Source of the DNA: Oscillospiraceae bacterium
Lineage (GTDB): Bacteria > Bacillota > Clostridia > Oscillospirales > Oscillospiraceae
Length of the DNA stretch: 64,000 nucleotides
Direction: 5' to 3'
Assembly (NCBI GenBank): GCA_017406005.1
Contig: JAFQZI010000163.1
Span: forward strand, 1-64,000
Part shown: in pieces, positions 32,922-53,457 of the stretch
Layout of the letters: every line of letters starts with the position of its first letter
Numbering within the stretch: position 1 is the stretch's first letter
Program-made: the position numbers and the translations under genes
The notes under the pieces: model-generated
Seen by the model: only the letters and a program-made list of their open reading frames with translations
Databases searched by the model: none
What the model was told of the DNA's origin: nothing

Positions 32922-32922
32922 G

Positions 32923-39554: not shown

Positions 39555-40201
39555 TTGTTTACTGGCTGCTGCTTCTGCCAACGGCACTGATCGCGTATTT
39601 GCTTGGCAGCATGAGCACGCTTGTGCTTTCTTCCAATTTTATTTTTCGATACAATCTGCGCCGGCTCGGAAAAGGAAATGATTGGCTGACGAATTTCCGC
39701 AGAGTGTACGGAGTAAAAGGCGCTCTGGTGCTGCTGCTCGTTGAGCTGATCAAGGATATTATCCCGATTATCATCGGCGGTGTGCTGATGGGCATCAAGG
39801 GACATGCAGCAGTGGGCAGAACTTTTGCGGGTTTCTGCGTTGTAATGGGAAGACTGTGGCCGGTTTATTACAGGCTGCGGGGCAGCCATGCCATTATGCC
39901 GCTCATCGTGTCAGCCCTGTTTGCTGATAAATCGCTGGGTGTAGTGCTGATAATTGTTGTGATTGCAGTGCTGGCTGTGACAAAATTCATTTCCCTTTCT
40001 GCTATTGCAAGTGCACTCGTGGTAATGGCGGCTTCTTTCCTGATCCTGGAAGACAGACTGTGTATACTCCTTCTGCTGTTCACGGGGCTTGCCGTGCTGA
40101 TCCGGCATCTGCCCGCACTTAAAAAAATCAGTGAAGGTACCGAAACAAAGATCGACCTGCGGAAGATCGATCTGACGTATAAGTTTGAGAACAAATTCTG
40201 A
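39551..40201 (+). CDS. Diverged PlsY-like glycerol-3-phosphate acyltransferase
   Basis: A 216-residue membrane protein with about six helices, at the position after der where Clostridia usually encode PlsY, which acylates glycerol 3-phosphate from acyl-phosphate. The PlsY frame is visible (GSMSTLVLSS, then a loop and helix pattern), but key motifs are altered: the SxNxGxTNxxR loop reads KGNDWLTNFRRVYG, and the GHxFPxxxxFKGGKG loop reads GRLWPVYYRLRGSHAIM, losing the glycine-lysine-glycine. It may be inactive, use another acceptor, or be a separate subfamily. A normal plsY may lie elsewhere in the genome. Confidence 0.7.
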   Translation: MIVYWLLLLPTALIAYLLGSMSTLVLSSNFIFRYNLRRLGKGNDWLTNFRRVYGVKGALVLLLVELIKDIIPIIIGGVLMGIKGHAAVGRTFAGFCVVMGRLWPVYYRLRGSHAIMPLIVSALFADKSLGVVLIIVVIAVLAVTKFISLSAIASALVVMAASFLILEDRLCILLLLFTGLAVLIRHLPALKKISEGTETKIDLRKIDLTYKFENKF

Positions 40202-41040
40202 TGGCAGGGAAAAAAAGAAAAAACAGAGCAAGGGGAGTGCTTTTGTTTCTGATCCTCTTGCTGGCGGCACTTGGAGTTCTGATTGGAGCTGCGTGGTACC
40301 GGTCGGTCATGGCTGAGAAGGAAGCCCTGCAGGAAGAGCTTGCCAAATACCAGATGGAAATCTCCCTGCGCCGCATGACAGAGGCACAAAGAGCAGCAAT
40401 CGCGGAAGCAGAGGCAGAAGCAAAGGCGGATGAAGAAGCACAGCGCCTGTCGCTGAAAAATGCCTTTCTTGCAAGGAACCGGGAAGAACTGCTGACGCTG
40501 GTAAACCCATGGCATGAGCTGGCGGAAACGTATGAGCCGCGCCTGACGGAGATCGGGGACGGAATGCTCTTTGATGAACGTGCTGCCGGTGCGCTCAAAC
40601 ATATGCTGGAAGATGCCAAAGCAGATGGCATCGTTGCAGTGCCGATTTCCGGATACCGGACACGGGAATACCAGCAGGGGCTTTTTGACGACAAGGTTCT
40701 GCGGGTACGGGCAAACGGATTTGAAGGAGAGGAAGCCCTGGAGGAGGCAGCGAAAGAAGTTGCCGTGCCGGGCACAAGTGAGCATGAGCTTGGCCTTGCT
40801 ATGGACATCCTTGATGTCAACAACCCGAACCTGGACTGGTCGCAGGAATGGGCACCTGCGCAGCGCTGGCTGATGGAACATTGCGAGGATTACGGCTTTA
40901 TTCTTCGATTTCCAAACGGGACTACGGAAAAAACCGGAATTATCTATGAACCGTGGCATTACCGATATGTCGGCCTGTCGGCTGCGAAGAAAATTATGGC
41001 TTCCGGCCTGACGCTGGAAGAGTATCTGGAGAAAGAATAA
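40201..41040 (+). CDS. M15 family D-alanyl-D-alanine carboxypeptidase (VanY-like)
   Basis: A 279-residue membrane-anchored peptidase. One N-terminal helix (GVLLFLILLLAALGVLIGAA) is followed by an alanine/glutamate-rich coiled coil (about 38-85) and the M15B catalytic domain. The zinc site is visible as SEHELGLAMDI (H and D ligands) and EPWHYRYVG (H ligand), with substrate block VPISGYRTREYQQGLF. It would trim D-alanine from peptidoglycan stems outside the cell. The ATG overlaps the last base of the preceding stop. Confidence 0.92.
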   Translation: MAGKKRKNRARGVLLFLILLLAALGVLIGAAWYRSVMAEKEALQEELAKYQMEISLRRMTEAQRAAIAEAEAEAKADEEAQRLSLKNAFLARNREELLTLVNPWHELAETYEPRLTEIGDGMLFDERAAGALKHMLEDAKADGIVAVPISGYRTREYQQGLFDDKVLRVRANGFEGEEALEEAAKEVAVPGTSEHELGLAMDILDVNNPNLDWSQEWAPAQRWLMEHCEDYGFILRFPNGTTEKTGIIYEPWHYRYVGLSAAKKIMASGLTLEEYLEKE

Positions 41041-41098: not shown

Positions 41099-41908
41099 TC
41101 AGTCGTCATAGAGGGAATAGCTGATTTCGTCAATCTCAGCATGGACGGTTTCAGGCCAGCTGTACTGGTTCATATAGTCTCCAAGATACTGGTATTTCGA
41201 TTCCAGCTTGTTCTCCAGCCAGTCATAGAGGTCGCATTCAATTTTATCTTTCGCAATGGCAAGGCTGCCGCGCTGTTTGAGGAGAATGCCGTTGAGCTTC
41301 AGTTTCGTGAAGGTATTCTGAAGATCCTGGCGGAGATTGGACAGATAGGAAGATTTTTTCTCCGGGTCGCCGTCATCTTCCCATAGAGTGGCAATGAGCT
41401 CTCCGTTGGTTGTCTGCGCCCCGCGGTTGTTGACGAGAATGGCAACAATTTCCTTCGTCTTTGAATATTTGAAAACGACAGGTTCTCCGTCTACAAACAA
41501 GTCAAAATTTCCAAAAGTCTGCGCAAAAACGCGCTTATGATTTTTCAGGAGAGCCGGGTGGCGGAGATCGTCCAGCTCGTGGGAGAGCCCATCTTTTGCC
41601 ACAGGCCTGAGAAGATATCCACTTGCATGCTGAGCCATGGCATCGTATCCGTGGCTGCGATCCTCTGACAGATAGATCAGGTTTATCAGGGGATAAAGCT
41701 CCTGCAGGTATTGGCCCAGGTCAATACCGCTAAGCTCAGAGAATTCAACACCGATCAGCGCGAGATCGACTTCTTTGTCTCTGGCAGCTGCCAAAGCAGC
41801 CAGGCTGCTTTCAAAACAGAGGAGTTCCGACTCCGGAGAAAGGCCGGTTACTAACTCGGAAAGCTGATGCAGGGCGGCAGAGTTTTCTTCTACGGCAAAA
41901 ATCGTCAT
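41099..41908 (-). CDS. SARP-like regulator with degenerate receiver domain
   Basis: A 269-residue protein. Residues 1-115 have the receiver fold: the acidic pair E7-E8 and S81 are kept, but the phospho-acceptor aspartate position is Gly53 (DLALIGVEF) and the conserved lysine is Arg101 (YLLRPV). Phosphorylation is therefore unlikely. Residues about 125-215 form a winged-helix DNA-binding domain (FGNFDLFVDGEPVVFKYSKT, KEIVAILVNNRG, LIATLWEDD), and the C-terminal helical tail resembles the SARP/BTAD layout. It follows the gene at 41905 with a 4-base overlap. Three nearby promoters carry 11-bp-spaced direct repeats of the kind that SARP and OmpR-type proteins bind, so it is the obvious candidate activator. 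Confidence 0.78.
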   Translation of the reverse strand: MTIFAVEENSAALHQLSELVTGLSPESELLCFESSLAALAAARDKEVDLALIGVEFSELSGIDLGQYLQELYPLINLIYLSEDRSHGYDAMAQHASGYLLRPVAKDGLSHELDDLRHPALLKNHKRVFAQTFGNFDLFVDGEPVVFKYSKTKEIVAILVNNRGAQTTNGELIATLWEDDGDPEKKSSYLSNLRQDLQNTFTKLKLNGILLKQRGSLAIAKDKIECDLYDWLENKLESKYQYLGDYMNQYSWPETVHAEIDEISYSLYDD

Positions 41909-42408
41909 TTTTCGTATCCTCCGAGTGCATCGAGAGAAACCACACGGACTTCCTGATTTTCCCGTTCTTCCTTCGTCATGTGCAGGGGATCAACTGCACC
42001 GACAAGAAGCATGTCACCCCCGTTTACAGCAGCGTCACGAAGCGGCCCGGCACTGAGGTCAGAGATAACAAGAGCTGCAAAGCGATCATAATTATCTTCG
42101 TCAATGACAGGGAAGTGATGCTGCATGCGATACCAGTGACGGGGATCAAAGCCCATGTTGCCGGTGTGAAGACGATCAGCAGTAGCTTCGACTTCGTCCG
42201 GCCCGGCAATCTGCCCGGGAACAGCTCCGATATCGTCACAAAACAGCATGGCGTAGACACGAAGAATCTGATCTCGCACGTTGTATGTTTTTCCGTTGCA
42301 TTCTACCGTGCTATCCATGATCTTATAATAGTATTCCTGAGCCTCTTCGCTCTCTTCAAAATGAGTAATGGCATCATAAAATGCTCTGTTAATCAATGGA
42401 TGAGCCAT
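41905..42408 (-). CDS. Conserved protein of unknown function, coupled to the SARP-like regulator
   Basis: A 167-residue soluble protein with no signal peptide or membrane helix. The start at 42408 follows AAAGGAGTG; the open frame extends to 42459 without a ribosome binding site. No family is recognised. Features include an aromatic N-part (NRAFYDAITHFEESEEAQEY) and a DDIGAVPGQIAGPDE segment. It overlaps the regulator by four bases, so the two proteins are probably made in similar amounts. It may be a ligand-sensing or inhibitory partner of that regulator, which is inference only. Confidence 0.65.
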   Translation of the reverse strand: MAHPLINRAFYDAITHFEESEEAQEYYYKIMDSTVECNGKTYNVRDQILRVYAMLFCDDIGAVPGQIAGPDEVEATADRLHTGNMGFDPRHWYRMQHHFPVIDEDNYDRFAALVISDLSAGPLRDAAVNGGDMLLVGAVDPLHMTKEERENQEVRVVSLDALGGYEK

Positions 42409-42650
42409 TTTTACACTCCTTTCCGTCAACGGGCAACGCCGATAACACAGTTTTCTCATTTTCTCCGGCTGACAATGCCACTGTACACGAAGAAAGAGAA
42501 AAATGCAAGAGCAAACTTTTGTCAGAAGAAAACACAGCCAGATAATTTATAATTTTGCGACGCCATTATACGATTATTTACATACTAAATTATGTTGACT
42601 TTATATGGAGATTGTAGTATTTTATAAACCAGTACTGTATCACTAAATTC

Positions 42651-42704
42651 GTGACAGATCTGTTGCTTTGTGTGACGGATGTGTGACAACCAACGTGATA
42701 TACT
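42651..42704 (+). promoter_or_regulatory. Direct-repeat promoter P1 (secreted zinc-ribbon gene)
   Basis: TGTGTGAC occurs at 42669-42676 and 42680-42687, exactly 11 bp apart, and a further GTGAC at 42651-42655. An extended -10 (TGATATACT, hexamer 42699-42704) starts 16 bases after the GTGAC core of the second repeat (42683). No -35 hexamer is present, so activation by a bound protein is expected. P2 at 51028 and P3 at 53410 have the same layout. Confidence 0.75.
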
Positions 42705-42778
42705 CCGGACACCGAAAGGAAATCAACAGCAAAAGATCAGCAAAAGATAATGTAATTATATTTTTTATGGAGGGAAAT

Positions 42779-44626
42779 ATGAAGAACAGAAAAAAACTTT
42801 TCAGTTTGCTGCTTGCCGCGGTTATGGTATTTGCTTTAGCAGCAGGCGGAACACAGATGGCAATGGCTGATACTCAGACAGCTGAACAGGCAGATGCAGC
42901 CATCAACACCATTTTTGCGACTATGGAATCTTTCAGGCAGGCAGGGACAAGTGCAGCCTGGCGCTATGCCGTGACAGATCTTGACCACAACGGACAGCTT
43001 GAACTGGTTGCGGCAGCACTGCATCCGGTTGACCGTTCGAACAACCTGAAGGTGTGGGAGCTCAGTGCAGACAACAGCAGTTTCAGCGAATGCAGGACGA
43101 TTACTCCCGAGGGAGAATCCTTCCCGGATATCCTGTCCAACAGTGCAGACACTTTCTATGATGCAGGAACTGATACCTGGAATTATGTTTTTCTGGATCA
43201 CATCATGCTTTCGGAAACGGACGTCTATGACGTAGTTTGTTCCGTGTCCATGAAGAATGGGTCGGTCGGTTTTACACAGCATGCCATTTCCCACACGGAA
43301 GTTGTGAACGGGTATATGTCGACAGCCTATATGGACACCAACGGCGTAAATATTTCTCCGGATGCGTATAACGATGCCGGTGTAAACGCATTTGCCGGTG
43401 CAGCAAAAAGCAGCACAAACTTTGGGTGGTTCAAGTTTGAGGATGCGACGGATGCGTCTTTCCTGAAAGACAGTTATGCCGTATTTACAGGAGAAAAGGA
43501 GCCGGACAAGACGACTTCACCGAAGCCTACCGTAACACCGACGGTGGCTGTCCCGGTACAGACGCAGACACCACAGGCTACGGCTGCTCCGAAGCCAACC
43601 ACAAACCCTCAGCCAAAACCCACCTATCTTACCATCACGAAGAATCCGACCAATGAAAACCGCAAGACCGGTGATACGGCTCTGTTTGTCGCCAACGCTA
43701 CGATTTTTGATACGTTGACATGGACGTTCGTAGCTCCAAACGGCGGAGAATACTCTGTGCAGAACTTCCGGAATGTCTTTTCAGGCTCGACAGTTTCGGG
43801 TGAGTATTCCACAACGCTTTCGGTCGGCAAAGTTCAGGAGGACATGAACGGCTGGGGAGCCTATTGCACCTTTTATTATAACGGGCAGACAGCACGTACC
43901 AGCACAGCTTACATCAATATAACAAACAAAGGCCAGCCGAGTCCGACACAGGATGTCTACGGTTCAACCAGCGGCACGGCTTACGAGGGCGGTGGCGGAT
44001 ACGCTATCAACCTTTCAAACGGCACCCAGGTGTATGTTGACGGGTATAAATGCAGTGTTTCCGGCACCTTCTATGACGGCTGCAGCTGCACGGTTTATTA
44101 TGTCATCCATCCCAACGGCTCTTACGACATTTATTCTGTCGATATCTACGGCAAAAGCAGCCCGTATGTACCGCCTGCCCCGAAGCCGCAGCCTACTTAC
44201 GGCTCCATGAGCGGCAGAGCCTACTCAGGCGGCGGTGGATATGCCATCAACCTTTCTAACGGTGCTCAGGTGTATGTTGACTCTTATAAATGCAGCGTTT
44301 CCGGCAGCTTCTATGAAGGCTGTGACTGCACTGTTTACTACACGCAGTATTCCGACGGCAGTTATGACATCACCAGTGTGGATATCTACGGAGGAGCTTA
44401 CGATGGCGGCTGGGCAGGCAGCAACTACTATCAGAATGAGTACGGAACCTATTTCGAGAATTATGACTATACCGGCGAGGTGACAAGCGGAGGAATGATC
44501 TATGATGACGACGGGTATGGCGGCGGCTGGGCAGGCAGCTCCACTGTGACCTGCCCGAACTGTGGGATGGAAGTTCAGTCTGCGTATGAAATGTGCCCGT
44601 ACTGCGGATACCATCTCTGGGGATAA
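42779..44626 (+). CDS. Secreted repeat protein with C-terminal zinc ribbon
   Basis: A 615-residue exported protein. The signal peptide (about 1-30, ending QMAMA) is followed by a globular region to about 245, a proline/threonine-rich linker (245-280), an Ig-like domain (about 280-385), and two near-identical 60-residue repeats starting near 392 and 473, each with GGGGYAINLSNG and CSVSG, then C-x-CTVYY. The last 25 residues are a zinc ribbon (CPNCG at about 592 and CPYCG at about 609), a module normally found inside cells. It starts after GGAGGGAAA and is driven by P1. It is probably a wall or surface protein of the adjacent secretion locus. Confidence 0.8.
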   Translation: MKNRKKLFSLLLAAVMVFALAAGGTQMAMADTQTAEQADAAINTIFATMESFRQAGTSAAWRYAVTDLDHNGQLELVAAALHPVDRSNNLKVWELSADNSSFSECRTITPEGESFPDILSNSADTFYDAGTDTWNYVFLDHIMLSETDVYDVVCSVSMKNGSVGFTQHAISHTEVVNGYMSTAYMDTNGVNISPDAYNDAGVNAFAGAAKSSTNFGWFKFEDATDASFLKDSYAVFTGEKEPDKTTSPKPTVTPTVAVPVQTQTPQATAAPKPTTNPQPKPTYLTITKNPTNENRKTGDTALFVANATIFDTLTWTFVAPNGGEYSVQNFRNVFSGSTVSGEYSTTLSVGKVQEDMNGWGAYCTFYYNGQTARTSTAYINITNKGQPSPTQDVYGSTSGTAYEGGGGYAINLSNGTQVYVDGYKCSVSGTFYDGCSCTVYYVIHPNGSYDIYSVDIYGKSSPYVPPAPKPQPTYGSMSGRAYSGGGGYAINLSNGAQVYVDSYKCSVSGSFYEGCDCTVYYTQYSDGSYDITSVDIYGGAYDGGWAGSNYYQNEYGTYFENYDYTGEVTSGGMIYDDDGYGGGWAGSSTVTCPNCGMEVQSAYEMCPYCGYHLWG

Positions 44627-44661
44627 AACCATTCTTCGATAGTCAGAAGAGAAACAGATAA

Positions 44662-44712
44662 ATTGCAAAGACGGGCGTTTCCTCAAAGGAGACGCTCGTC
44701 TTTGCAAAAAAA
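44662..44712 (+). terminator. Terminator
   Basis: TTGCAAAGACGGGCGT and the imperfect complement ACGCTCGTCTTTGCAA form a long stem with one mismatch region, followed by AAAAAAAG. It is well placed to end the 42779 gene. Confidence 0.75.
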
Positions 44713-44739
44713 GTATAATTAAGAGACTGTCATTTTTCC

Positions 44740-44782
44740 TTTTCACACGTATTTTTTTATGCTATACTATACAAAATAGTAT
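44740..44782 (+). promoter_or_regulatory. Promoter of the ABC secretion operon
   Basis: An extended -10, TGCTATACT (hexamer 44763-44768), is preceded 17 bases upstream by TTTTCA (44740-44745). ATACTAT (44764-44770) and ATAGTAT (44776-44782) form a perfect 7-bp inverted repeat over the -10 and start, a possible repressor site. The TGTGTGAC direct repeats of P1-P3 are absent, so this operon is controlled differently. Confidence 0.6.
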
Positions 44783-44800
44783 GTAAAAGGAGCAGAAGAG

Positions 44801-45217
44801 ATGGAGAATCAGATATTCAGGGAAAAAAGCCTGGAGAGGCTGTCGTCCCCGGAGGAACTGAATGACTATCTGCATGTTACGAACCCGGCAATCTGGGTAG
44901 TACTTGCAGCTGTGATTCTCCTGCTGTCAGGTCTTTTAATCTGGAGCAATTTTACTTCAATTGAAAGCAGTGCAGCCGGCACTGCCGTCGCAGAAAAAGG
45001 CGTCCTTACGATTATGTTTGAGGATGAGAAGAAAGCGCAGAATATTAAGCCCGGAATGCAAGCAACAGTGGGCGACATCCAGGCAGAGATTTCTTCTGTA
45101 ACAACCGATGAGAACGGCCGGCGTATAGCAACAGCATCTGCAAATATCCCGGACGGGGTATATGACGTGAAGGTTGGCTATAAAAGTACCCGGATTCTGC
45201 AGCTTTTGTTTAACTGA
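44801..45217 (+). CDS. Minimal HlyD-like secretion adaptor (NHLM type)
   Basis: A 138-residue single-pass membrane protein. The N-terminus (FREKSLERLSSPEELNDYLH) matches the start of NHLM-system secretion proteins, then a membrane helix (about 30-49) and a short extracytoplasmic beta domain (ESSAAGTAVAEKG to the end). Normal HlyD/NHLM adaptors are two to three times longer with a coiled-coil hairpin and lipoyl halves; both coils are missing here. It is the first gene of the operon with the two ABC proteins. AAGGAG precedes the start. It probably binds the transporter's outer face as a short adaptor. Confidence 0.78.
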   Translation: MENQIFREKSLERLSSPEELNDYLHVTNPAIWVVLAAVILLLSGLLIWSNFTSIESSAAGTAVAEKGVLTIMFEDEKKAQNIKPGMQATVGDIQAEISSVTTDENGRRIATASANIPDGVYDVKVGYKSTRILQLLFN

Positions 45218-45231
45218 CGGGAGGAGTGCCT

Positions 45232-47409
45232 GTGTCAAAAAAGGTTGTACAGCCCGTCACCCACGGGGTTGCGAAAGTACCTGTGGTAATGCAGATGGAG
45301 GCACTGGAATGCGGTGCCGCCTGCCTGGCAATGGTGCTGGCATATTATCAGAAATGGGTGCCGCTGGAACAGGTGCGTGTTGACTGCGGCGTTTCGCGCG
45401 ACGGATCAAATGCCCTAAATGTCCTGAAAGCGGCACGCAGTTATGGGCTGGATGCGAAAGGCTACCGCCTGGAGCCGGAAACACTTCGAGCGGAAGGGAG
45501 CTTCCCATGCATCGTGCACTGGAACTTCAATCACTTTGTAGTTGTTTGCGGTTTCAGAGGGAAGTATGCCTATATCAATGACCCCGCACGCGGCAGTGTA
45601 AAGATCACGGCAGAGGAGTTCGACCAATCCTTTACCGGGATCTGTCTGATGTTTGAGCCGACGGACGATTTTCAGGCGGACGGAAAGCGAAAGAGTACGC
45701 TTTCCTTTGCCCGCAAACGCCTTGCCGGAGCGGGAGCGGCGGTTGCTTTCGTGATGATAACAACCCTGATCAGCTATCTTTTCGGGATTATCAACCCTGT
45801 CTTTTCGCGCTTTTTTATGGACTGGCTGCTCGAAGGGGAAAATAGGGAGCTGCTTATACCGTTCCTGATTCTCCTCGCCTGTGTGGGCGGACTTCAGGTG
45901 CTGGTAAGTGCAATACAGGCAGTTTATGCCCTGAAGATTAACGGAAAAATGGCGGTGGTCGGCAGCAGCACCTATATGTGGAAGGTTCTGCACCTGCCTA
46001 TGAGTTTCTTCTCTCAGCGCATGGCAGGAGATATCCAGATGCGCCAGGAGACAAACGCTTCTATTGCAGGAGTACTTGTTGATACTTTTGCACCGCTGCT
46101 GCTGAACGTTGTCATGATGGTTTTCTATCTGGTGGTTATGCTGCGCTACAGTGTAATACTCACGATGGTAGGGCTTGCAACCGTTGTGATTAACGGCCTA
46201 ATGGGCAGAATCATTTCCGAAAAGCGGGTGAATATCACACGCGTACAGATGCGGGATGCCGGTAAACTGGCCTCAGCCACAGTTTCGGGCATTCAGATGG
46301 TAGAAACGATTAAAGCAAGCGGTGCGGAAAACGGTTTTTTTGCCAAATGGGCCGGATATCAGGCATCTGTCAGTGCACAGGCTGTGAAATTTACAAAACT
46401 CAATGCCTACCTGGGCATGATCCCGTCCTTCTTTTCCGCGGTAGCCAATTATGCAGTTCTGGTATTGGGTGTTTATTTAGTCATGCAGGGTCAATTCACC
46501 CTCGGTATGATTTTCACCTTCCAGGCTTTTCTCTCCTCTTTCCTGAACCCTGCTATGACGATGATTTCTGCAGGGCAGACAATCCAGGAAATGCGGACAC
46601 AGATGGAACGTGTGGAAGATGTTCTGCAGGTACCGGACGATATGCCCTACTTGGACACTGTGCTTTCGGATGACGGTGACTACAGAAAGCTTTCGGGAGA
46701 GATTGAACTGAAGCATGTTACCTTTGGCTATTCTCCTCTGGCAGAACCGTTGATTCGGGACTTTTCCATGACCGTAAAACCCGGTAGCCGTGTAGCATTT
46801 GCAGGGATGTCAGGCTCGGGAAAAAGCTCCCTGGCGAAGCTCGTGGCAGGGTTGTACCAGCCATGGAGCGGCGAGATCCTCTTTGACGGGAAACCGATCC
46901 GGGAGATCGATCGAAATGTATTTACCGGGTCTCTCGCGGTAGTGGATCAGGACATCATCCTCTTTGAGGGAACAATTGCAGACAACATCAAGATGTGGGA
47001 TAACTCCATTGAAGATTTTGAAATGATTCTCGCAGCCCGCGATGCACAGATCCATGATGACATTGTCCAGCGGGAAGGCGGATATCAGGGTCGAATCACG
47101 GAGGGCGGAAAAGATCTGTCCGGAGGACAACGGCAGCGGCTTGAGATCGCACGCGTGCTGGCACAGGATCCTTCTGTCATTATTATGGATGAAGCGACCA
47201 GTGCTCTGGATGCAAAAACAGAATATGAGCTTGTAAAAGCTGTAAAAGAGCGGGGCATTACCTGTATCGTCATTGCGCACAGACTGTCAACCATCCGTGA
47301 CTGCGACGAAATCATTGTGCTGGATCACGGCAGAGTGGCGGAGCGCGGAACTCATGATGAACTCTACGCAAAAGGCGGATATTATACAGAGCTCATCACG
47401 AGTGACTGA
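45232..47409 (+). CDS. C39 peptidase-containing ABC exporter (bacteriocin-type)
   Basis: A 725-residue exporter that removes double-glycine leaders while exporting peptides. Residues 1-130 are a C39 cysteine protease with catalytic Cys27 (ALECGAAC), His101 (NFNHFVVV) and Asp117 (INDPARG), all present. Six helices follow (about 150-440), then the ATPase with Walker A GMSGSGKSS, signature LSGGQRQRLEIARVL and Walker B VIIMDEATSALD. The start is GTG 45232, since GGGAGGA lies 6 bases upstream; an in-frame GTG at 45226 touches that site. Three GG-leader peptides encoded 4-8 kb downstream are its likely cargo. It pairs with the next gene, as in NHLM systems. Confidence 0.93.
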   Translation: MSKKVVQPVTHGVAKVPVVMQMEALECGAACLAMVLAYYQKWVPLEQVRVDCGVSRDGSNALNVLKAARSYGLDAKGYRLEPETLRAEGSFPCIVHWNFNHFVVVCGFRGKYAYINDPARGSVKITAEEFDQSFTGICLMFEPTDDFQADGKRKSTLSFARKRLAGAGAAVAFVMITTLISYLFGIINPVFSRFFMDWLLEGENRELLIPFLILLACVGGLQVLVSAIQAVYALKINGKMAVVGSSTYMWKVLHLPMSFFSQRMAGDIQMRQETNASIAGVLVDTFAPLLLNVVMMVFYLVVMLRYSVILTMVGLATVVINGLMGRIISEKRVNITRVQMRDAGKLASATVSGIQMVETIKASGAENGFFAKWAGYQASVSAQAVKFTKLNAYLGMIPSFFSAVANYAVLVLGVYLVMQGQFTLGMIFTFQAFLSSFLNPAMTMISAGQTIQEMRTQMERVEDVLQVPDDMPYLDTVLSDDGDYRKLSGEIELKHVTFGYSPLAEPLIRDFSMTVKPGSRVAFAGMSGSGKSSLAKLVAGLYQPWSGEILFDGKPIREIDRNVFTGSLAVVDQDIILFEGTIADNIKMWDNSIEDFEMILAARDAQIHDDIVQREGGYQGRITEGGKDLSGGQRQRLEIARVLAQDPSVIIMDEATSALDAKTEYELVKAVKERGITCIVIAHRLSTIRDCDEIIVLDHGRVAERGTHDELYAKGGYYTELITSD

Positions 47410-47424
47410 GGAAGGAGACAGGCT

Positions 47425-49659
47425 ATGTTCAACTGGTTCGATGAACAGATCCGGCAGAGGAAACGGCATGATCAGGAGCTGTTTGAAGATTCCATACTCC
47501 GGATGGCCTCCTCCGTCATCGGGACGAAAAATGCAGGAAGTCTGGCGGATGAGCGCATCGTTACACGAGATGCAATTGACGATATTCTGAAGCATTACCA
47601 TTATAAACCGGCGGAGATTCCGGATTCGATCAAGAGCACGGAAGATCAGATGAACTTTGCTTTCCGCCCGCACGGAATCATGTATCGGCCGGTAGAGCTG
47701 AGCACAGGCTGGCAGAAGGATGCCTTTGGCCCTATGCTTGGCTATCGGAAAGAGGATGGGCGTCCGGTTGCACTGATTCCGAACCCGGTACATGGATACT
47801 GGTATAAAGATCCAAACGGGAAAAAAACGCAGGTTACGGGACAAAACGCGGAGGAATTTCAAAAGGAAGCGTTCTGCTTTTACCGTCCGCTCCCACTGAA
47901 GGCCATCGGGATTCCGGATCTTATGCTGTATCTGAAAAACTGCCTCAGCGCAGGCGATGTGGTGCTGTTCGTTGCACTGGCGCTGCTGATCGTTCTCACC
48001 GGAATCCTGGTTCCGCGATTGACGAAAATGCTGACAGGTTTTGTGCTACCACTCGGAAATGCCACACTGCTGTGGGGCACAGCAGGTTTTTTGATCTGCA
48101 CGGCACTGTCGTCACAACTATTAACCATGTCACGTGACCTGGCTATGGCCCGGATTGAGACAAAGAGCTCTCTTGCGGTGGAAGCTGCCATGATGCAGCG
48201 CCTGCTAAGCCTGCCGGCACCGTTTTTCAGATCCTACAGCGCAGGAGAGTTGTCCAGAAGAAGCCAGGCTGTGAATCAGCTTTGCAGCCTGCTGCTGGGT
48301 AGTGTGTTTTCCACAGGAATCACTTCGCTGGCGTCGTTGATCTACATCGGGCAGATCTTCCGCTTTGCCCCGGCGCTTACCACACCTGCACTTTGTGTGA
48401 TTCTGGCAACGGTGGCAGTATCGCTGATCACGACGCTGACGAAAATGAAGCTGAGCAAACAGCAGATGGAGTACAGCGCAAAGGAAAGCGGATTGAGCTA
48501 TGCTCTTATTACCGGGGTACAGAAAATCAAACTTGCGGGAGCGGAAAAACGTGCCTTTGCCAAATGGGCTGACGCATATGCCAAAGAAGCGGAGTTGCAA
48601 TATAACCCACCGCTGTTTCTGAAAATCAATTCCGCGATTCTTACAGCGATCTCACTGGTCGGTACGATTGTTATTTATTTCTTTGCAGTGGAAACGCAAG
48701 TTTCCCCTTCCGATTATCTCGCGTTCAGCACAACATACGGAATGGTGATGGGAGCATTTTCTTCCCTTGCCGGAATTGCAGTGTACGTTGCACAAATCAA
48801 GCCGATTCTGGAAATGGCGGAGCCAATTCTGAAAGCAGAGCCAGAGGTTTCAGAGGGAAGAGAGATCCTCACAAGGCTTTCCGGCAACATTGAGATGAAT
48901 AACGTTTCCTTCCGGTACACCGAGCATATGCCGTATGTGATCGATGGGATGAACCTGAAGATCAAAGCCGGCGAATATGTGGCAATTTGCGGAAAATCAG
49001 GTGCGGGAAAAAGCAGCCTGATGCGATTGCTTCTCGGGTTTGAAACACCGGAGCGCGGTGCCATCTATTATGACGGGAAGGATATCAATAAAATCGACCT
49101 GCGTTCACTGCGGAAAATGATCGGAGCTGTAATACAGGATGGCAGTCTCTTCCAGGGGGATATTTACTCCAATATTGTGATCTCGGCGCCGCAGCTGTCG
49201 GTAAAGGATGCCTGGGAGGCGGCAGAAATTGCCGGTATCGCAGATGATATCCAGGCTATGCCGATGGGAATGAACACCATAATCAGTGAAGGGCAGGGCG
49301 GCATTTCCGGCGGGCAGAAGCAACGGCTGATGATTGCCCGTGCAATTGCACCGAAACCGAAAATCCTGATGTTTGACGAGGCTACCAGTGCGCTGGACAA
49401 CAAAACGCAAAAACAGGTGTCGGAGGCGCTGGACAGACTGAAGTGTACCCGCATCGTTATAGCGCATCGGCTTTCGACAATCCGTCACTGTGACAGGATT
49501 TTATTCCTCGACGGAGGGAAGATTGCAGAAGACGGCACTTATGAAGAACTGATTGCAAAAGGCGGGCAATTTGCCGAACTGGTAGAACGCCAGCGCCTGG
49601 ACAAAACAGGAGAAAAAAACGGCGAAGCCGGAGAGAACTCCGATCCTGCCGAAGAATAA
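47425..49659 (+). CDS. NHLM-type ABC permease/ATPase partner
   Basis: A 744-residue ABC half-transporter with an N-terminal cytosolic domain (1-165) of the NHLM-system type instead of a peptidase; it includes GYWYKDPNGKKTQVTGQNAE. Six helices span about 180-450. The ATPase has Walker A GKSGAGKSS, signature ISGGQKQRLMIARAI and Walker B ILMFDEATSALDN. It should form a heterodimer with the C39 protein. NHLM partners are known from nitrile-hydratase-leader peptide clusters, yet no such leader is in this window. The start follows GAAGGAGA. A partner-switch trio begins 13 bases after the stop. Confidence 0.9.
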   Translation: MFNWFDEQIRQRKRHDQELFEDSILRMASSVIGTKNAGSLADERIVTRDAIDDILKHYHYKPAEIPDSIKSTEDQMNFAFRPHGIMYRPVELSTGWQKDAFGPMLGYRKEDGRPVALIPNPVHGYWYKDPNGKKTQVTGQNAEEFQKEAFCFYRPLPLKAIGIPDLMLYLKNCLSAGDVVLFVALALLIVLTGILVPRLTKMLTGFVLPLGNATLLWGTAGFLICTALSSQLLTMSRDLAMARIETKSSLAVEAAMMQRLLSLPAPFFRSYSAGELSRRSQAVNQLCSLLLGSVFSTGITSLASLIYIGQIFRFAPALTTPALCVILATVAVSLITTLTKMKLSKQQMEYSAKESGLSYALITGVQKIKLAGAEKRAFAKWADAYAKEAELQYNPPLFLKINSAILTAISLVGTIVIYFFAVETQVSPSDYLAFSTTYGMVMGAFSSLAGIAVYVAQIKPILEMAEPILKAEPEVSEGREILTRLSGNIEMNNVSFRYTEHMPYVIDGMNLKIKAGEYVAICGKSGAGKSSLMRLLLGFETPERGAIYYDGKDINKIDLRSLRKMIGAVIQDGSLFQGDIYSNIVISAPQLSVKDAWEAAEIAGIADDIQAMPMGMNTIISEGQGGISGGQKQRLMIARAIAPKPKILMFDEATSALDNKTQKQVSEALDRLKCTRIVIAHRLSTIRHCDRILFLDGGKIAEDGTYEELIAKGGQFAELVERQRLDKTGEKNGEAGENSDPAEE

Positions 49660-49672
49660 AGGAGGTTTAACA

Positions 49673-50296
49673 ATGCAGACGAACAAGCTGCCGGTACGCA
49701 ACACGGACATCCGGCTTCCCGCTGCGATGAAGATTACAGACGATGTAGCCATACGCCTTGAACTTTCCAGGAAAGACTGGCTTCATCTCCAGCTTCTCGT
49801 GGAAGAGACACTTGGAATGGTACGGGCAATGACAGATGGATTTGAAGGAAAATTCTGGCTTGAATATGAAGGCCGTATCTGTTATATTTGTCTTGAAGTG
49901 GAAACCAGCATGGATCTGGACCGAAAGGACCAGCTGATAGCGCTTTCCACATCCGGGAAGAATGCCAGCCGAAAAGGATTTATGGGGAAAATTGCAGACA
50001 TCATAGAAAACAGCCTGCTGTTTTATGATAATGTGGGCATGCTACAGATGCAATACGGAACACAGGTTATCCCCATGGAACCGACCGGGGCAGGTTTTGG
50101 CGAAGAAGCAATGGTCATTCCAGTCTGGTCTCTGAATGAATACAAGCAGAATCTTGCTCCCGAGGAAGAAAAGACAGAAAACAGCGAGGCCTGGGATGAG
50201 CTGGAAAAATCGATTGTGGCTAAACTGTCTGACGATGTAATTGTCGGAATAAAAAAGAATAAAGCAAGCTTTACCATTGTTAAAAAATTTGAATGA
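49673..50296 (+). CDS. Partner-switch-associated protein, possible degenerate HATPase
   Basis: A 207-residue soluble acidic protein. The stretch LHLQLLVEETLGMVRAMTDG resembles the N-box helix of RsbW-like kinases (E-E-T-L in place of D-E-L-x-x-N), but the glycine-rich ATP boxes are not obvious. The C-terminal 60 residues are acidic and then helical. It starts after GGAGGTTTAAC. The position between the ABC gene and STAS/RsbW-like genes suggests a third component of the switch or an adaptor to the exporter. No family name is given. Confidence 0.6.
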   Translation: MQTNKLPVRNTDIRLPAAMKITDDVAIRLELSRKDWLHLQLLVEETLGMVRAMTDGFEGKFWLEYEGRICYICLEVETSMDLDRKDQLIALSTSGKNASRKGFMGKIADIIENSLLFYDNVGMLQMQYGTQVIPMEPTGAGFGEEAMVIPVWSLNEYKQNLAPEEEKTENSEAWDELEKSIVAKLSDDVIVGIKKNKASFTIVKKFE

Positions 50297-50314
50297 TAAC
50301 AGGAGGAAAGAATC

Positions 50315-50614
50315 ATGTTAGAAATCAGCAAAAAAAAGGAAAACACTGTTCTGGAAGTTGCACTGAAAGGACGGCTTGACACTTCAACATCCCCGGAACT
50401 GGAGCAGTTCCTGAAAGACAATCTCACCGGTGTAACGGAACTGGTGATTGATTTGAGCGATCTGGAGTACATCTCTTCTGCCGGACTGCGCGTTCTGCTT
50501 TCCGCCCATAAGACGATGGCAAAACAGGGGAGCATGAGGCTTCTGCATGCAAACGAAGTTGTCATGGAAGTATTTGAAGTAACCGGGTTTGTAGATATTC
50601 TGAATATTGAGTAA
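50315..50614 (+). CDS. STAS-domain anti-anti-sigma factor
   Basis: A 99-residue single STAS domain like RsbV/SpoIIAA. The phosphorylation-loop block DLSDLEYISSAGLRVLLSAH holds the conserved serine (ISSAGL) that the partner kinase would modify. It would bind and neutralise the kinase/anti-sigma encoded next, whose ATG overlaps this stop (TAATG). AGGAGGAAAG precedes the start. No sigma factor gene is nearby, so the switch may control another target. Confidence 0.93.
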   Translation: MLEISKKKENTVLEVALKGRLDTSTSPELEQFLKDNLTGVTELVIDLSDLEYISSAGLRVLLSAHKTMAKQGSMRLLHANEVVMEVFEVTGFVDILNIE

Positions 50615-51021
50615 TGAAAGAGCTGACAGTTCCCGCTACTATAGAAAATATTGAGACAGTAACAGACTTTGTCAACGGACAGTTGGAAGAAGCAGACTGC
50701 CCGATGAAAACGCAGATGCAATTTGATGTAGCGATCGATGAGCTGTTCAGCAACATTGCCCACTATGCTTATGCTCCGGAAACCGGCCTTGCAACTGTAC
50801 GGGTGAGTCTGGAGAAAGATCCGCCTGCGGCTGTTGTCACTTTTGTGGACAGTGGCCGACCGTATGATCCCCTGGCGAAGAAAGACCCTGATGTTTCGCT
50901 TGCCGTGCATGACCGCCCGACAGGTGGGTTGGGCATCTTTCTCGTCAAGAAGATAATGGATAACGTGAGCTATGAGTACAAGGAAGGGCACAATATTTTG
51001 CGCATTTATAAAAAATACTGA
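50614..51021 (+). CDS. RsbW-like anti-sigma factor / serine kinase
   Basis: A 135-residue HATPase_c protein of the RsbW/SpoIIAB type. The N-box is VAIDELFSNIAHYAY, G1 is FVDSGRPYDPL and G2 is RPTGGLGIFLVKK, so ATP binding should be intact. It would phosphorylate the STAS partner and hold a sigma factor or other client when the STAS protein is phosphorylated. The one-base overlap with the STAS gene (TAATG) indicates coupling. The P2 promoter begins just after the stop. Confidence 0.93.
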   Translation: MKELTVPATIENIETVTDFVNGQLEEADCPMKTQMQFDVAIDELFSNIAHYAYAPETGLATVRVSLEKDPPAAVVTFVDSGRPYDPLAKKDPDVSLAVHDRPTGGLGIFLVKKIMDNVSYEYKEGHNILRIYKKY

Positions 51022-51027
51022 TGTTGT

Positions 51028-51060
51028 GTGACAGTTGTGTGACATTTCCTGTGCTATACT
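51028..51060 (+). promoter_or_regulatory. Direct-repeat promoter P2 (LysM leader peptide)
   Basis: TGTGTGAC repeats have GTGAC cores at 51028-51032 and 51039-51043, 11 bp apart. The extended -10 TGCTATACT has its hexamer at 51055-51060, exactly 16 bases after the second core. The spacing is the same as at P1 and P3. Confidence 0.78.
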
Positions 51061-51121
51061 GTGTCTGCAAACAAAGAGAGAGACCGTTTGCAAAAGTATT
51101 ATTCAGAAAGGAACAGAAATA

Positions 51122-51328
51122 GTGGATATGGAAAAAGCAGTACTGAACGATGAGGAACTGGGCAAGATCCAGGGCGGAACGCAGCTCCCTTATGAAATCA
51201 AGAGCGGAGATACATTGAGCGAGCTCGCAAAGAAATATCACTGCACGGTTGAAGAGCTCTGCAAGTGGAACAATATCAGAAATGCCAATGAGATTTCGGT
51301 AGGCCAGAAACTGGTTATCAAATTCTGA
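51122..51328 (+). CDS. Double-glycine leader peptide with a LysM domain
   Basis: A 68-residue precursor. The first 19 residues (MDMEKAVLNDEELGKIQGG) form a double-glycine leader with the L-x-x-E-E-L-x-x-I-x-G-G pattern cut by C39 peptidases. The 49-residue remainder is a single LysM module (YEIKSGDTLSELAKKYHCTV, then NEISVGQKLVIKF), which binds N-acetylglucosamine chains of peptidoglycan. GTG 51122 is chosen because AAAGGAA lies about 9 bases upstream; the ATG at 51128 would be too far. It is driven by P2. A C39-exported LysM peptide is unusual and would coat or bridge the cell wall, or act on neighbours. Confidence 0.85.
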   Translation: MDMEKAVLNDEELGKIQGGTQLPYEIKSGDTLSELAKKYHCTVEELCKWNNIRNANEISVGQKLVIKF

Positions 51329-51344
51329 GATTGTTCCCAAATTA

Positions 51345-51378
51345 GAAAAAGCCTTTGCTCTTTCTGAGCAGAGGCTTT
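51345..51378 (+). terminator. Terminator/attenuator between two leader-peptide genes
   Basis: AAAAAGCCTTTGCTC pairs with GAGCAGAGGCTTTTT around TTTCT. It sits between the LysM peptide and the next GG peptide, so most transcripts from P2 would end here and downstream genes would be made at lower level. Confidence 0.85.
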
Positions 51379-51405
51379 TTCAAAAGCATTTCAGGAGGAA
51401 CAGCT

Positions 51406-51612
51406 ATGAAGAAGGACACGGATACTGAGCAGATCAGGAAAGAGATGGTGTCTCTTTCCGATGAGGAACTCAGCGCTGTTGCAGGCGGGTTTGACACTTT
51501 TCCGGATCAGGACGGTGTTGACAGGCATTCCTGGTTTGTTACACTGATGATGAATCTCCTGCACACGCATCCCAACAGCACAGACCAGGCAGAGAAAGAG
51601 AGAAAGCCTTGA
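51406..51612 (+). CDS. Double-glycine leader peptide, no known domain
   Basis: A 68-residue precursor with a 28-residue leader ending SLSDEELSAVAGG, a textbook double-glycine site. The predicted mature peptide has 40 residues, starts FDTFPDQDGVDRHSWF, contains a short hydrophobic stretch (FVTLMMNLL) and ends with charged residues. It has no LysM and no cysteines. It could be a bacteriocin, a pheromone or a structural peptide. AGGAGG precedes the ATG at 51406. The stop overlaps the next gene's TTG start. Confidence 0.75.
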   Translation: MKKDTDTEQIRKEMVSLSDEELSAVAGGFDTFPDQDGVDRHSWFVTLMMNLLHTHPNSTDQAEKERKP

Positions 51613-52817
51613 AACCCGGCATCCTTAAAAAGGTGCCGGGAATTTCCGGTATTGTCGGGCTTTCGGCTGGTACGGGAATTTTACTGGTGCTGCTGATTAA
51701 ACTGGGCAGGCCGGGCTGGCTGTTATGGACGAACCTGGTACTGACAGTTTATTTTTCTCTTGTAGTTTTGCTGCTCTGGCGGGCATTCCGGCTGCAGATG
51801 AAGAATGATCTGTACTCGTACAATACTATTTTTTATTTTGGGTTTGCCTTATTTATCCTTTCTCTGGCCGGAACGTATTTTTATATCACGATTCACTGCT
51901 TCCAAAACCCGCAGAGTTTTCGGGAAAAACAAACAATTTTCACACTGCTGCATTCTGCAAAAAACTACATGCTTTTAACAGCGCCGTTCCTGCTGCTCTT
52001 TGCCGGCAGCCTTTTCATCTCTAATATCATGCTGATCCGGCACGAAGGATTCCGGTTTGTAAATTTACTGGGGATACTTCTCTCTTTTCTCCTGGTAGCA
52101 GGACAGGTGCTGATTGATTTTCTGGATTATCGGGCGGCTGTTTACGGACAGCAAAGCCTATGGGAAAACCTTGTAATCAACCTGATGGCAGCATTTTATC
52201 TTTATTTTGAATGCATGATCATCGGTTCCGCAGTTGCAGATGTGATTGCAGCAAGGGCCCAGGCAGAGAGAGACAGGGATTATCTGATTGTTCTCGGCTG
52301 CGGGTTGAAGAAAGATGGTACACCGACACCTTTGCTGAAAGGAAGACTTGATCTTGCTTTGCAGTTCCGGAAAACACAGGTGCAGGAAAATGGAAAAGAA
52401 GCTAACTTTGTAGTTTCCGGCGGACAGGGAGCAGATGAAGTTCAGGCAGAGGCAGCATCAATGCAGTCATATCTGCTGGAACAGGGGGTCCCTCAGGGAC
52501 AGATTCTTTTGGAGGACCGATCCGTCAACACACTGGAAAACATGGCCTTTTCCAAAGAAAAGATCGATGCAGTGCAGGAAAATGCCAAGGTGGCTTTCTT
52601 CACCACAAATTATCATGTGTTCCGGGCAGGGTTGAAAGCAAAACAGGCAGAACTGGATGCCACAGGCATGGGAGCACCAACAAAGTGGTATTTCTGGCCA
52701 AATGCTGCCGTACGCGAGTATGTCGGATTGCTGACGGAACATCGCGGAAAGCAGGCATGTATCCTGTTCACGGTTGCCGCAGTTTATACTTCGCTGACCA
52801 TTCTGGCATATACATAA
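51609..52817 (+). CDS. YdcF/ElyC/SanA-domain membrane protein
   Basis: A 402-residue protein with six or so N-terminal helices (about 10-230), a YdcF domain (about 232-370) and a final helix (about 380-400). The domain motifs are IVLGCGLKKDGTPTPLLKGR, VVSGGQGADE, and FFTTNYHVFRAG. YdcF/ElyC/SanA proteins act in envelope biogenesis under stress. The proposed TTG start at 51609 overlaps the preceding stop (TTGA), since no ATG precedes the first helix. It may process lipid-linked precursors where LysM peptides dock, which is speculation. Confidence 0.85.
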   Translation: MKPGILKKVPGISGIVGLSAGTGILLVLLIKLGRPGWLLWTNLVLTVYFSLVVLLLWRAFRLQMKNDLYSYNTIFYFGFALFILSLAGTYFYITIHCFQNPQSFREKQTIFTLLHSAKNYMLLTAPFLLLFAGSLFISNIMLIRHEGFRFVNLLGILLSFLLVAGQVLIDFLDYRAAVYGQQSLWENLVINLMAAFYLYFECMIIGSAVADVIAARAQAERDRDYLIVLGCGLKKDGTPTPLLKGRLDLALQFRKTQVQENGKEANFVVSGGQGADEVQAEAASMQSYLLEQGVPQGQILLEDRSVNTLENMAFSKEKIDAVQENAKVAFFTTNYHVFRAGLKAKQAELDATGMGAPTKWYFWPNAAVREYVGLLTEHRGKQACILFTVAAVYTSLTILAYT

Positions 52818-52831
52818 ACGTGAACAGAATC

Positions 52832-52877
52832 ATGAAAAACCAGCTATAGGAAATCATTCCCGTAGCTGGTTTTTCTT
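52832..52877. terminator. Bidirectional terminator
   Basis: AAAAACCAGCTA and TAGCTGGTTTTT form the stem. It serves the YdcF gene on the + strand and the LysM gene on the - strand. Confidence 0.88.
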
Positions 52878-52894
52878 GCATTGTGATCCGACGG

Positions 52895-53278
52895 TTATCT
52901 CCCTGTAGGAATAAGAAGGGTTGCCCCTTCGGTAATGAGATCGGGATTGCCGATGCGATTGAGCTTCTGCAGTGCAGATACCGTGGTGTGATAGCGCAGA
53001 GCAATGGCACTGAGGGTGTCACCGCGCTTCACAACATAGGTTGTCGTGTAAGCCGGAGAATAGACAGGCTGCGGTTTGGCCTCCTCACCGACAGGGGTAG
53101 CGAGAACACCGCCGGAAACCTTCAGCAGTTCGAAATCATCAAGCGGTTCTCCATCTACTTTCGGCTTGAGAGTGGAATTATCGGGAACATTGATCGTTGT
53201 TCTTACTACCGTTGCGCCGCCTGTTACAGCGTCCAGTACCTGATCTTCCAGATTGTTCTTTGTGATATCATTCGCCAT
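52895..53278 (-). CDS. LysM protein with two tandem double-glycine leader sites
   Basis: A 127-residue precursor with no Sec signal. Two leader-like sites are present: [13 protein letters not shown], ending at Gly21, and [13 protein letters not shown], ending at Gly57; each has the L-x-x-x-x-L-x-x-V-x-G-G spacing. After a proline-rich spacer comes one LysM domain (about 78-124, [20 protein letters not shown]). The C39 exporter could cut at either or both sites, releasing a 35-residue spacer peptide and a LysM fragment. The start at 53278 follows GGAGGTGCG. Promoter P3 upstream has the same repeats as P1 and P2, tying it to the same control. Confidence 0.82.
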
Positions 53279-53409
53279 GAGTCGCACCTCCAAAAATGTT
53301 TTTATTATTATAACATAGCTGATTCGAGAAATCTGCACCTAATTGTAACAATTTTTTAAATTTCAGAAATCTTTTTTTGTTTCAGTGCGGATTTCTTAAA
53401 AACAAATAC

Positions 53410-53442
53410 AGTTTAGCACATAGAGTATCACACAACTGTCAC
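53410..53442 (-). promoter_or_regulatory. Direct-repeat promoter P3 (tandem-leader LysM gene)
   Basis: On the minus strand TGTGTGAC and TGTGTGAT have cores at 53442-53438 and 53431-53427, 11 bp apart. The extended -10 TGCTAAACT has its hexamer at 53415-53410, 16 bases after the second core, as in P1 and P2. The untranslated leader to 53278 is about 125 bases. Confidence 0.75.
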
Positions 53443-53457
53443 ACAAGACAGAAATGC

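Follow-up and report, generated by a model that had tools for sequence, protein, structure and literature searches.

The 64,000-nucleotide stretch of Oscillospiraceae DNA analyzed here (contig JAFQZI010000163.1, positions 1 to 64,000; hereafter the window), part of a 3.5-Mb draft genome in 174 contigs, contains between 41 and 53 kb a locus that very probably exports small LysM-domain peptides through a pair of ATP-binding cassette (ABC) proteins of the C39/NHLM type. C39/NHLM exporters are usually interpreted as makers of bacteriocins and of ribosomally synthesized and post-translationally modified peptides (RiPPs), and the one described here appears to secrete ordinary wall-binding domains. 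Export of the LysM peptides, already proposed in the initial annotation, is well supported because cargo and exporter co-occur across genomes, the leaders follow a published cleavage rule, and the peptidase is nearly identical to LahT. Taken as a whole, the explanation that this locus is the core of a wider secretion regulon seems probable.

Both halves of the exporter passed their family models, with 935.6 bits for ABC1 on TIGR03796 (cut-off 853.3) and 719.5 bits for ABC2 on TIGR03797 (cut-off 709.4), and Pfam confirmed the C39 domain of ABC1. The HlyD-like adaptor annotated beside them does match TIGR03794, but with 33.4 bits against a cut-off of 156.2, and its 138 residues compare with a model of 421 positions. 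The C39 domain matches the LahT150 structure 6mpz (279 bits), with 120 of 146 aligned residues identical. According to the available text of PMC6363468, LahT150 cleaves diverse double-glycine (GG) leaders using hydrophobic residues at positions −12, −7 and −4. By eye, these positions are L/L/I in LysM1, L/L/V in the second peptide, GGp2, and L/L/V at both GG sites of LysM2, and the GG leaders of all three peptides thus conform to the LahT rule. Applied by script to the loci examined, the rule together with GG fitted 45 of the 47 short LysM-labeled open reading frames (ORFs) and 5 of the 6 labeled GGp2, versus 91 of 4050 other ORFs of 50–130 aa. Judged in this way, the window peptides carry the C39-cleaved type of leader known from class II bacteriocins; in the Pfam search they fell below the Bacteriocin_IIc cut-off or were unlisted, and none matches the NHLP or Nif11 families. 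Two of the three were correctly recognized from the outset as LysM proteins (PF01476 gathering cut-off 20.9; scores in Table 1), LysM2 having since been reassigned to the minus strand. GGp2 is without LysM and contains a DRxSWFV motif common to its relatives. The two successive GG leaders of LysM2 lie 36 residues apart and are both retained in locus L063, and a LysM2-like protein in L200 has a single one.

The pairing of cargo and exporter was examined in 61 genomes of the same genus, 36 of which contain the exporter (TIGR03796 at E ≤ 1e-200). Among the matches listed, short GG-LysM proteins (E ≤ 1e-10, open frames of at most 160 aa, a filter that leaves out G001 at 1.3e-10, G032 and G059) are present in 29 of the 36 exporter genomes and in 1 of the 25 exporter-less ones. 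GG-CW_7 proteins follow the same pattern (25/36 versus 1/25, leaving out G020 with E 2.5e-9 and a 412-aa frame). When the comparison is limited to the 23 genomes with completeness of 90% or more and contamination of 5% or less, cargo of the LysM or CW_7 kind occurs, among the matches listed, in 11 of 14 genomes with the exporter and in 1 of 9 without. Conservation of the pairing in relatives, set in advance as the test of the proposal, was therefore upheld. GG precedes LysM in 21 of 21 aligned rows, the LysM cargo is of several types, and CW_7, PepSY and SH3-like domains are found behind GG leaders as well; for CW_7, a cargo protein put to the test contains two repeats (89.9 bits), and 9 relatives could be aligned. 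As export is deduced here from sequence, the LysM peptides could instead be cytosolic, with an incidental GG motif and an exporter serving some other substrate. The contrast between 45/47 and 91/4050 under the leader rule, the co-occurrence with ABC1, and the occurrence of this kind of leader on CW_7, PepSY and SH3-like domains render this extremely improbable.

A search with LysM1 found 34 loci, comprising 18 short relatives of 66–101 aa (L077–L094), 14 cases of LysM within longer proteins and 2 unlabeled ones. The drafts containing the short relatives are assigned to Oscillospiraceae, Ruminococcaceae, Clostridiales or Clostridia, and the sources stated for some are yak, roe deer or goat. In the order (345 genomes, ours included), the exporter occurs in 24 genomes, again including ours. 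Coverage extended to 23 of the 24 exporter places outside the genus, with 4–17 kb each (that of G275 was left out); LysM cargo was labeled at none of these 23 places, which hold Nif11-like and other GG peptides, several together with STAS/RsbW genes. None of the 344 other genomes of the order had a full-length match to type-A GG-LysM (E ≤ 1e-12), the only LysM type sought there, and three LysM-only matches lie in frames of 199–429 aa. Since no LysM cargo was labeled at the fetched loci and no type-A match was found elsewhere in the order, LysM cargo, as far as type A goes, looks like an invention within the genus.

Table 1. Features of the locus, with window coordinates and strand
Feature	Position	Strand	Basis or remark
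RR, receiver plus winged-helix-type DNA-binding part, candidate box activator	41099-41908	-	Pfam, profile
ORF184, uncharacterized protein	41905-42408	-	4-bp overlap with RR
Box 42668-42688 (2-3 mismatches) and -10 TATACT 42699-42704 of ZnR gene	42668-42704	+	
ZnR, signal-peptide-like start, conserved N-terminal domain, Ig-like part, beta repeats, C-terminal zinc ribbon	42779-44626	+	Ig-like part by eye
Sigma-70-like consensus match, without box, before exporter genes	44740-44768	+	sequence match
HlyD-like short adaptor, 138 aa	44801-45217	+	TIGR03794, below cut-off
ABC1, C39 peptidase, permease and ATPase (NHLM ABC1)	45226-47409	+	TIGR03796
ABC2, NHLM permease/ATPase partner	47425-49659	+	TIGR03797
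U207, uncharacterized protein beside STAS	49673-50296	+	no family at or above cut-off
STAS-domain protein	50315-50614	+	PF01740 58.4 bits
RsbW-like kinase	50614-51021	+	PF13581 (HATPase_c_2) 82.9 bits; RsbW models below cut-off
Box 51024-51044 and extended -10 TGTGCTATACT of LysM1	51024-51060	+	
LysM1, 19-aa GG leader and 49-aa LysM	51122-51328	+	PF01476 60.6 bits; family A1
GGp2, GG-leader peptide, DRxSWFV motif	51406-51612	+	4-bp overlap with YdcF start
YdcF/DUF218 membrane protein	51609-52817	+	PF02698 90.2 bits
LysM2, tandem GG leaders (Gly21, Gly57) and LysM	52895-53281	-	PF01476 56.3 bits
Box 53426-53446 and -10 at 53410-53415 of LysM2	53410-53446	-	

The second part of the argument is a shared promoter sequence. 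Matches to the consensus TTGTGTGACANTTGTGTGA, a tandem 11-bp repeat, with at most 3 mismatches occur at three sites in the window, where 0.04 are expected, lying upstream of ZnR, LysM1 and LysM2 and nowhere else. A degenerate form allowing 1 mismatch yielded 151 sites in 23 of the 61 genus genomes (20 in our own), compared with 3 sites over all 61 for the reversed-pattern control. The strict box with a −10 element was found in none of the 344 other genomes of the order, the degenerate form having been sought within the genus only. Across the retrieved loci, 96 of 106 distinct boxes have a −10 hexamer at one fixed spacing, preceded by TG in most cases. This spacing lay outside the searched pattern, and it provides strong independent support for the box as a predicted promoter element. 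The box shared by the cargo genes is, on these comparisons, the putative switch that the earlier reading of the sequence overlooked.

The genes behind the boxes are mostly those of exported proteins. A census of 73 distinct boxes out of the 151, drawn from 8 of the 23 box-bearing genomes and classed by a crude automatic rule (applied to the first ORF that has a ribosome site), gave a GG-leader gene in 42 cases, a Sec-type or membrane-protein gene in 23, another gene in 6 and none in 2, that is, a GG-leader or Sec/membrane gene behind 65 boxes; random positions gave 3–9% GG and 3–6% Sec or transmembrane. Earlier automatic GG tags (32 of 66 boxes) were dropped for errors in both directions in favor of this later rule and of hand reading. 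Read by hand, the 20 boxes of our own genome precede nine GG-leader proteins (three LysM, three PepSY, one SH3-like, one uncharacterized and truncated where the contig ends, one Nif11-Hint), seven proteins that begin in Sec-like fashion (ZnR, two PepSY, FecR and three others) and one small membrane protein, with three boxes unassigned. Among representatives, PepSY passes Pfam in both its GG and Sec forms and FecR passes too, and SH3_3 remains below cut-off in three. The Nif11-leader GG protein (L192:315-1043), encoded away from the exporter locus, scores 32.6 on TIGR03798 (cut-off 32.3) and has a Hint-type domain whose models fall just under cut-off. Glycine-zipper GG peptides lie behind boxes in L199 and L212. 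In L139, two LysM cargo genes on one contig (943-1194 and 3194-3445) encode the same product, and each has its own box. GG-leader proteins of 140–150 aa with an uncharacterized core are encoded in L040 (15322-15744), L041 (5353-5790), L044 (11066-11518) and L047 (11163-11585), behind boxes in L040, L044 and L047; the two tested had no Pfam match above cut-off.

The candidate activator of these promoters is the response regulator RR, whose receiver passes Pfam (Response_reg, 31.9 bits) and whose DNA-binding half, almost invariant among relatives, scores 16.2 on Trans_reg_C (cut-off 26.2) and matches EmbR (2fez) by profile over positions 124–196 (E 9e-5). ORF184 gave no Pfam, NCBIfam or PDB fold match (best E 1.2; mean predicted local distance difference test, pLDDT, 74). 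The two are co-present in 21 of the 61 genomes, all of which have boxes, and boxes occur in 2 of the 40 genomes without RR (G009 and G060). RR and box are concordant in all 36 exporter genomes (21 with both, 15 with neither), the 23 stricter genomes divide into 5 with RR and box, 1 with a box without RR and 17 with neither, and on an ABC1 tree of 36 rows the RR and box patterns are identical, with 5 changes each. We consider it quite likely that RR regulates the box set, presumably by binding the repeats. Activators of the SARP (Streptomyces antibiotic regulatory protein)/OmpR type have direct-repeat promoters. Here too the repeats have an 11-bp period, fixed about 10 bp before the −10, and the DNA-binding part has its profile match to EmbR beside a Trans_reg_C score below cut-off; unlike in SARPs, a receiver stands in front and Pfam finds no BTAD (at E 0.1).

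The initial annotation had proposed export on demand and listed STAS and RsbW-like genes, which are indeed present by PF01740 and PF13581. Among 62 ABC1 loci, with labels resting on flanks of unequal length, STAS is labeled in 27 and RsbW in 12, and SpoIIE–RsbW-like fusions exist in two loci tested, which would be consistent with partner switching, instead of RR, as the main control. However, STAS/RsbW genes also adjoin NHLM exporters lacking LysM cargo, several cargo loci (L044, L049 and L065, for example; limited flanks) show no label for them, and the box follows the distribution of RR. Partner switching as the main control thus seems quite unlikely, and the tandem-repeat box tracking RR appears to be the better supported switch. 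In the fusions, located beside NHLM exporters (L090:6674-9394, L053:3733-5871), a SpoIIE phosphatase is joined to an RsbW-like kinase; that of L090 resembles the biofilm regulator SiaA with a score below cut-off.

We propose that the SARP-like RR, together with ORF184, activates promoters in which the tandem TGTGA box replaces the −35 element. Such promoters would control small exported proteins encoded at scattered places; many have a GG leader and, at the end, a domain of wall or envelope type (LysM, CW_7, SH3-like, PepSY), and others have Sec-type signals. The LahT-like C39 of ABC1 would cut the GG leader, ABC1, ABC2 and HlyD would export the domain, and the domain would then bind peptidoglycan. 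The genes, their leaders, the conserved pairing, and the boxes with the genes behind them are observed directly, and RR–box binding, cleavage and export, wall binding by the product and its use are the steps that we infer. By its domains the cargo would act at the wall or envelope, and a role there as coat, mark, weapon or signal is likewise what we infer. The likeliest use would be on the producer's own wall, coating and protecting it or tuning its hydrolases, which is plausible if not quite probable. For the window/L063 pair, the ratio of nonsynonymous to synonymous substitution rates (dN/dS) was 0.05 for the LysM1 core, 0.04 for ABC1 and 0.37 for the 19-codon leader, with dS near 1. On these ratios LysM1 is under purifying selection, whereas a toxin core would be expected to change rapidly, and this difference favors a role on the own wall over antagonism. 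More tentatively, a gut Oscillospiraceae lineage may have repurposed a RiPP/bacteriocin exporter for wall mini-proteins, one regulon feeding both the exporter and Sec and recoating the cell on command.

Several observations weigh against this regulon model. No box precedes the window's exporter operon, and 11 genomes have LysM or CW_7 cargo, among the matches listed, and no box, so the box is unnecessary for the cargo–exporter pairing. G009 (65% complete) and G060 (93%) contain cargo and boxes yet lack ABC1, RR and ORF184, and neither gave a C39 match in a search run without positive control; the G060 contig begins about 3.3 kb ahead of its LysM/ZnR genes, so a contig gap is possible there. 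The Fisher values count related genomes as independent, and the well supported branches hold just 2 independent RR/box pairs, a number insufficient for a sign test. At the phospho-acceptor column of the receiver, 9 of 13 rows have D and 4 lack it, including the window's RR, which has G, and phosphorylation may accordingly not be the signal. The structure model of RR has a fair receiver and a DNA-binding half with pLDDT below 50, which is unusable. Compared with L049, whole LysM1 has a dN/dS of 0.16 versus 0.05 for ABC1 and so evolves faster. Finally, the box-driven glycine-zipper GG peptide of L199 passes Bacteriocin_IIc (27.4, cut-off 27.1).

This last peptide leaves room for antagonism, in which the exported domains would be weapons or targeting peptides acting on competitor walls, under a bacteriocin regulon with unusual cores. 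The GG leaders and the NHLM exporter are of bacteriocin type, and the secreted LysM protein of another bacterium is reported as bacteriostatic in the available text of PMC12327690, although that protein also has an M23 domain, which the cargo here does not. Of 18 YdcF-labeled genes, 13 immediately follow one for a GG peptide, with a 4-bp overlap in several cases, and this membrane protein could serve in self-protection; YdcF, initially named as a partner, is supported as a neighbor. On the other hand, the LysM cores are near neutral (net charge +1 and +2; GGp2 has −3) and under purifying selection, and the co-regulated PepSY and FecR proteins are not toxin-like. We regard antagonism as somewhat unlikely.

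Bacteriocin pheromone circuits employ a response regulator with direct-repeat boxes, which the RR and box arrangement recalls. A GG peptide could in the same manner act as a pheromone sensed through YdcF or through ORF184 and RR, with the wall-binders as output, and GGp2 would be the best candidate, being free of LysM, conserved in its motif and overlapping YdcF. Yet none of the genes between 41 and 53 kb was recognized by Pfam as a histidine kinase, the receiver Asp is not conserved, and GGp2 is labeled in 6 of 40 loci, making signaling very unlikely.

Returning to wall-binding cargo under the shared box, the proposed partnership with the zinc-ribbon protein gains from 24 LysM1–ZnR gene adjacencies in the loci examined and from the box that both genes share in the window. 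A TTG start at 42668 in the ORF list was rejected for ZnR, as the reading frame would run through the promoter box; because the box occupies this position, we placed the start at about 42779. The zinc ribbon scores below the Pfam cut-off, and among 14 aligned homologues few retain it, the N-terminal domain and Ig-like part being better conserved. A VanY-type carboxypeptidase is encoded directly ahead of the locus (40201-41040), and a VanX-like family occurs near the exporter in four relatives (one checked by Pfam).

With regard to known systems, class II bacteriocin export shares the short GG leader and the C39 ABC exporter; here, in contrast, the cores are conserved LysM, CW_7, PepSY and SH3-like domains scattered over the genome under one box. 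LahT, an AMS/PCAT transporter of Lachnospiraceae C6A11 with the same C39 and leader rule, sits in a lanthipeptide cluster with Nif11-type precursors (PMC6363468, available text), whereas the cargo here consists of wall-type domains, and Pfam recognized no RiPP-modifying enzyme among the genes of 41–53 kb. The NHLP/Nif11 export cluster TIGR03794/03796/03797 (Haft 2010, PMC2887384) has the same ABC1/ABC2 models and GG cleavage logic in its available main text, which never uses the word LysM; in our locus HlyD is under cut-off and the LysM cargo is neither NHLP nor Nif11. Fungal LysM effectors, as far as their accessible descriptions go, are likewise small secreted LysM proteins without an enzyme and with a possible shielding role, but the system here is bacterial, uses a peptidase-ABC route, and shielding is only a possibility. 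We found no description of GG-leader LysM export in the available open-licence literature, which is not proof of absence; it is undescribed in the accessible text of PMC2887384, PMC6363468, PMC13289728, PMC3482391, PMC11322243, PMC3873254, PMC5524665, PMC9159523 and PMC12327690, and two papers with both terms, LysM and double-glycine, use them separately in the text available.

If one such exporter apparently secretes wall-binders, envelope secretion may also be the role of other "bacteriocin" exporters in gut Firmicutes. Wherever a genome bears the box, candidate cargo can be listed from it directly, and the published protease LahT150 makes the first step, leader cleavage, readily testable. 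The window also contains a second tandem ABC exporter-like gene pair (31353-34608), whose matches miss the C39 part.

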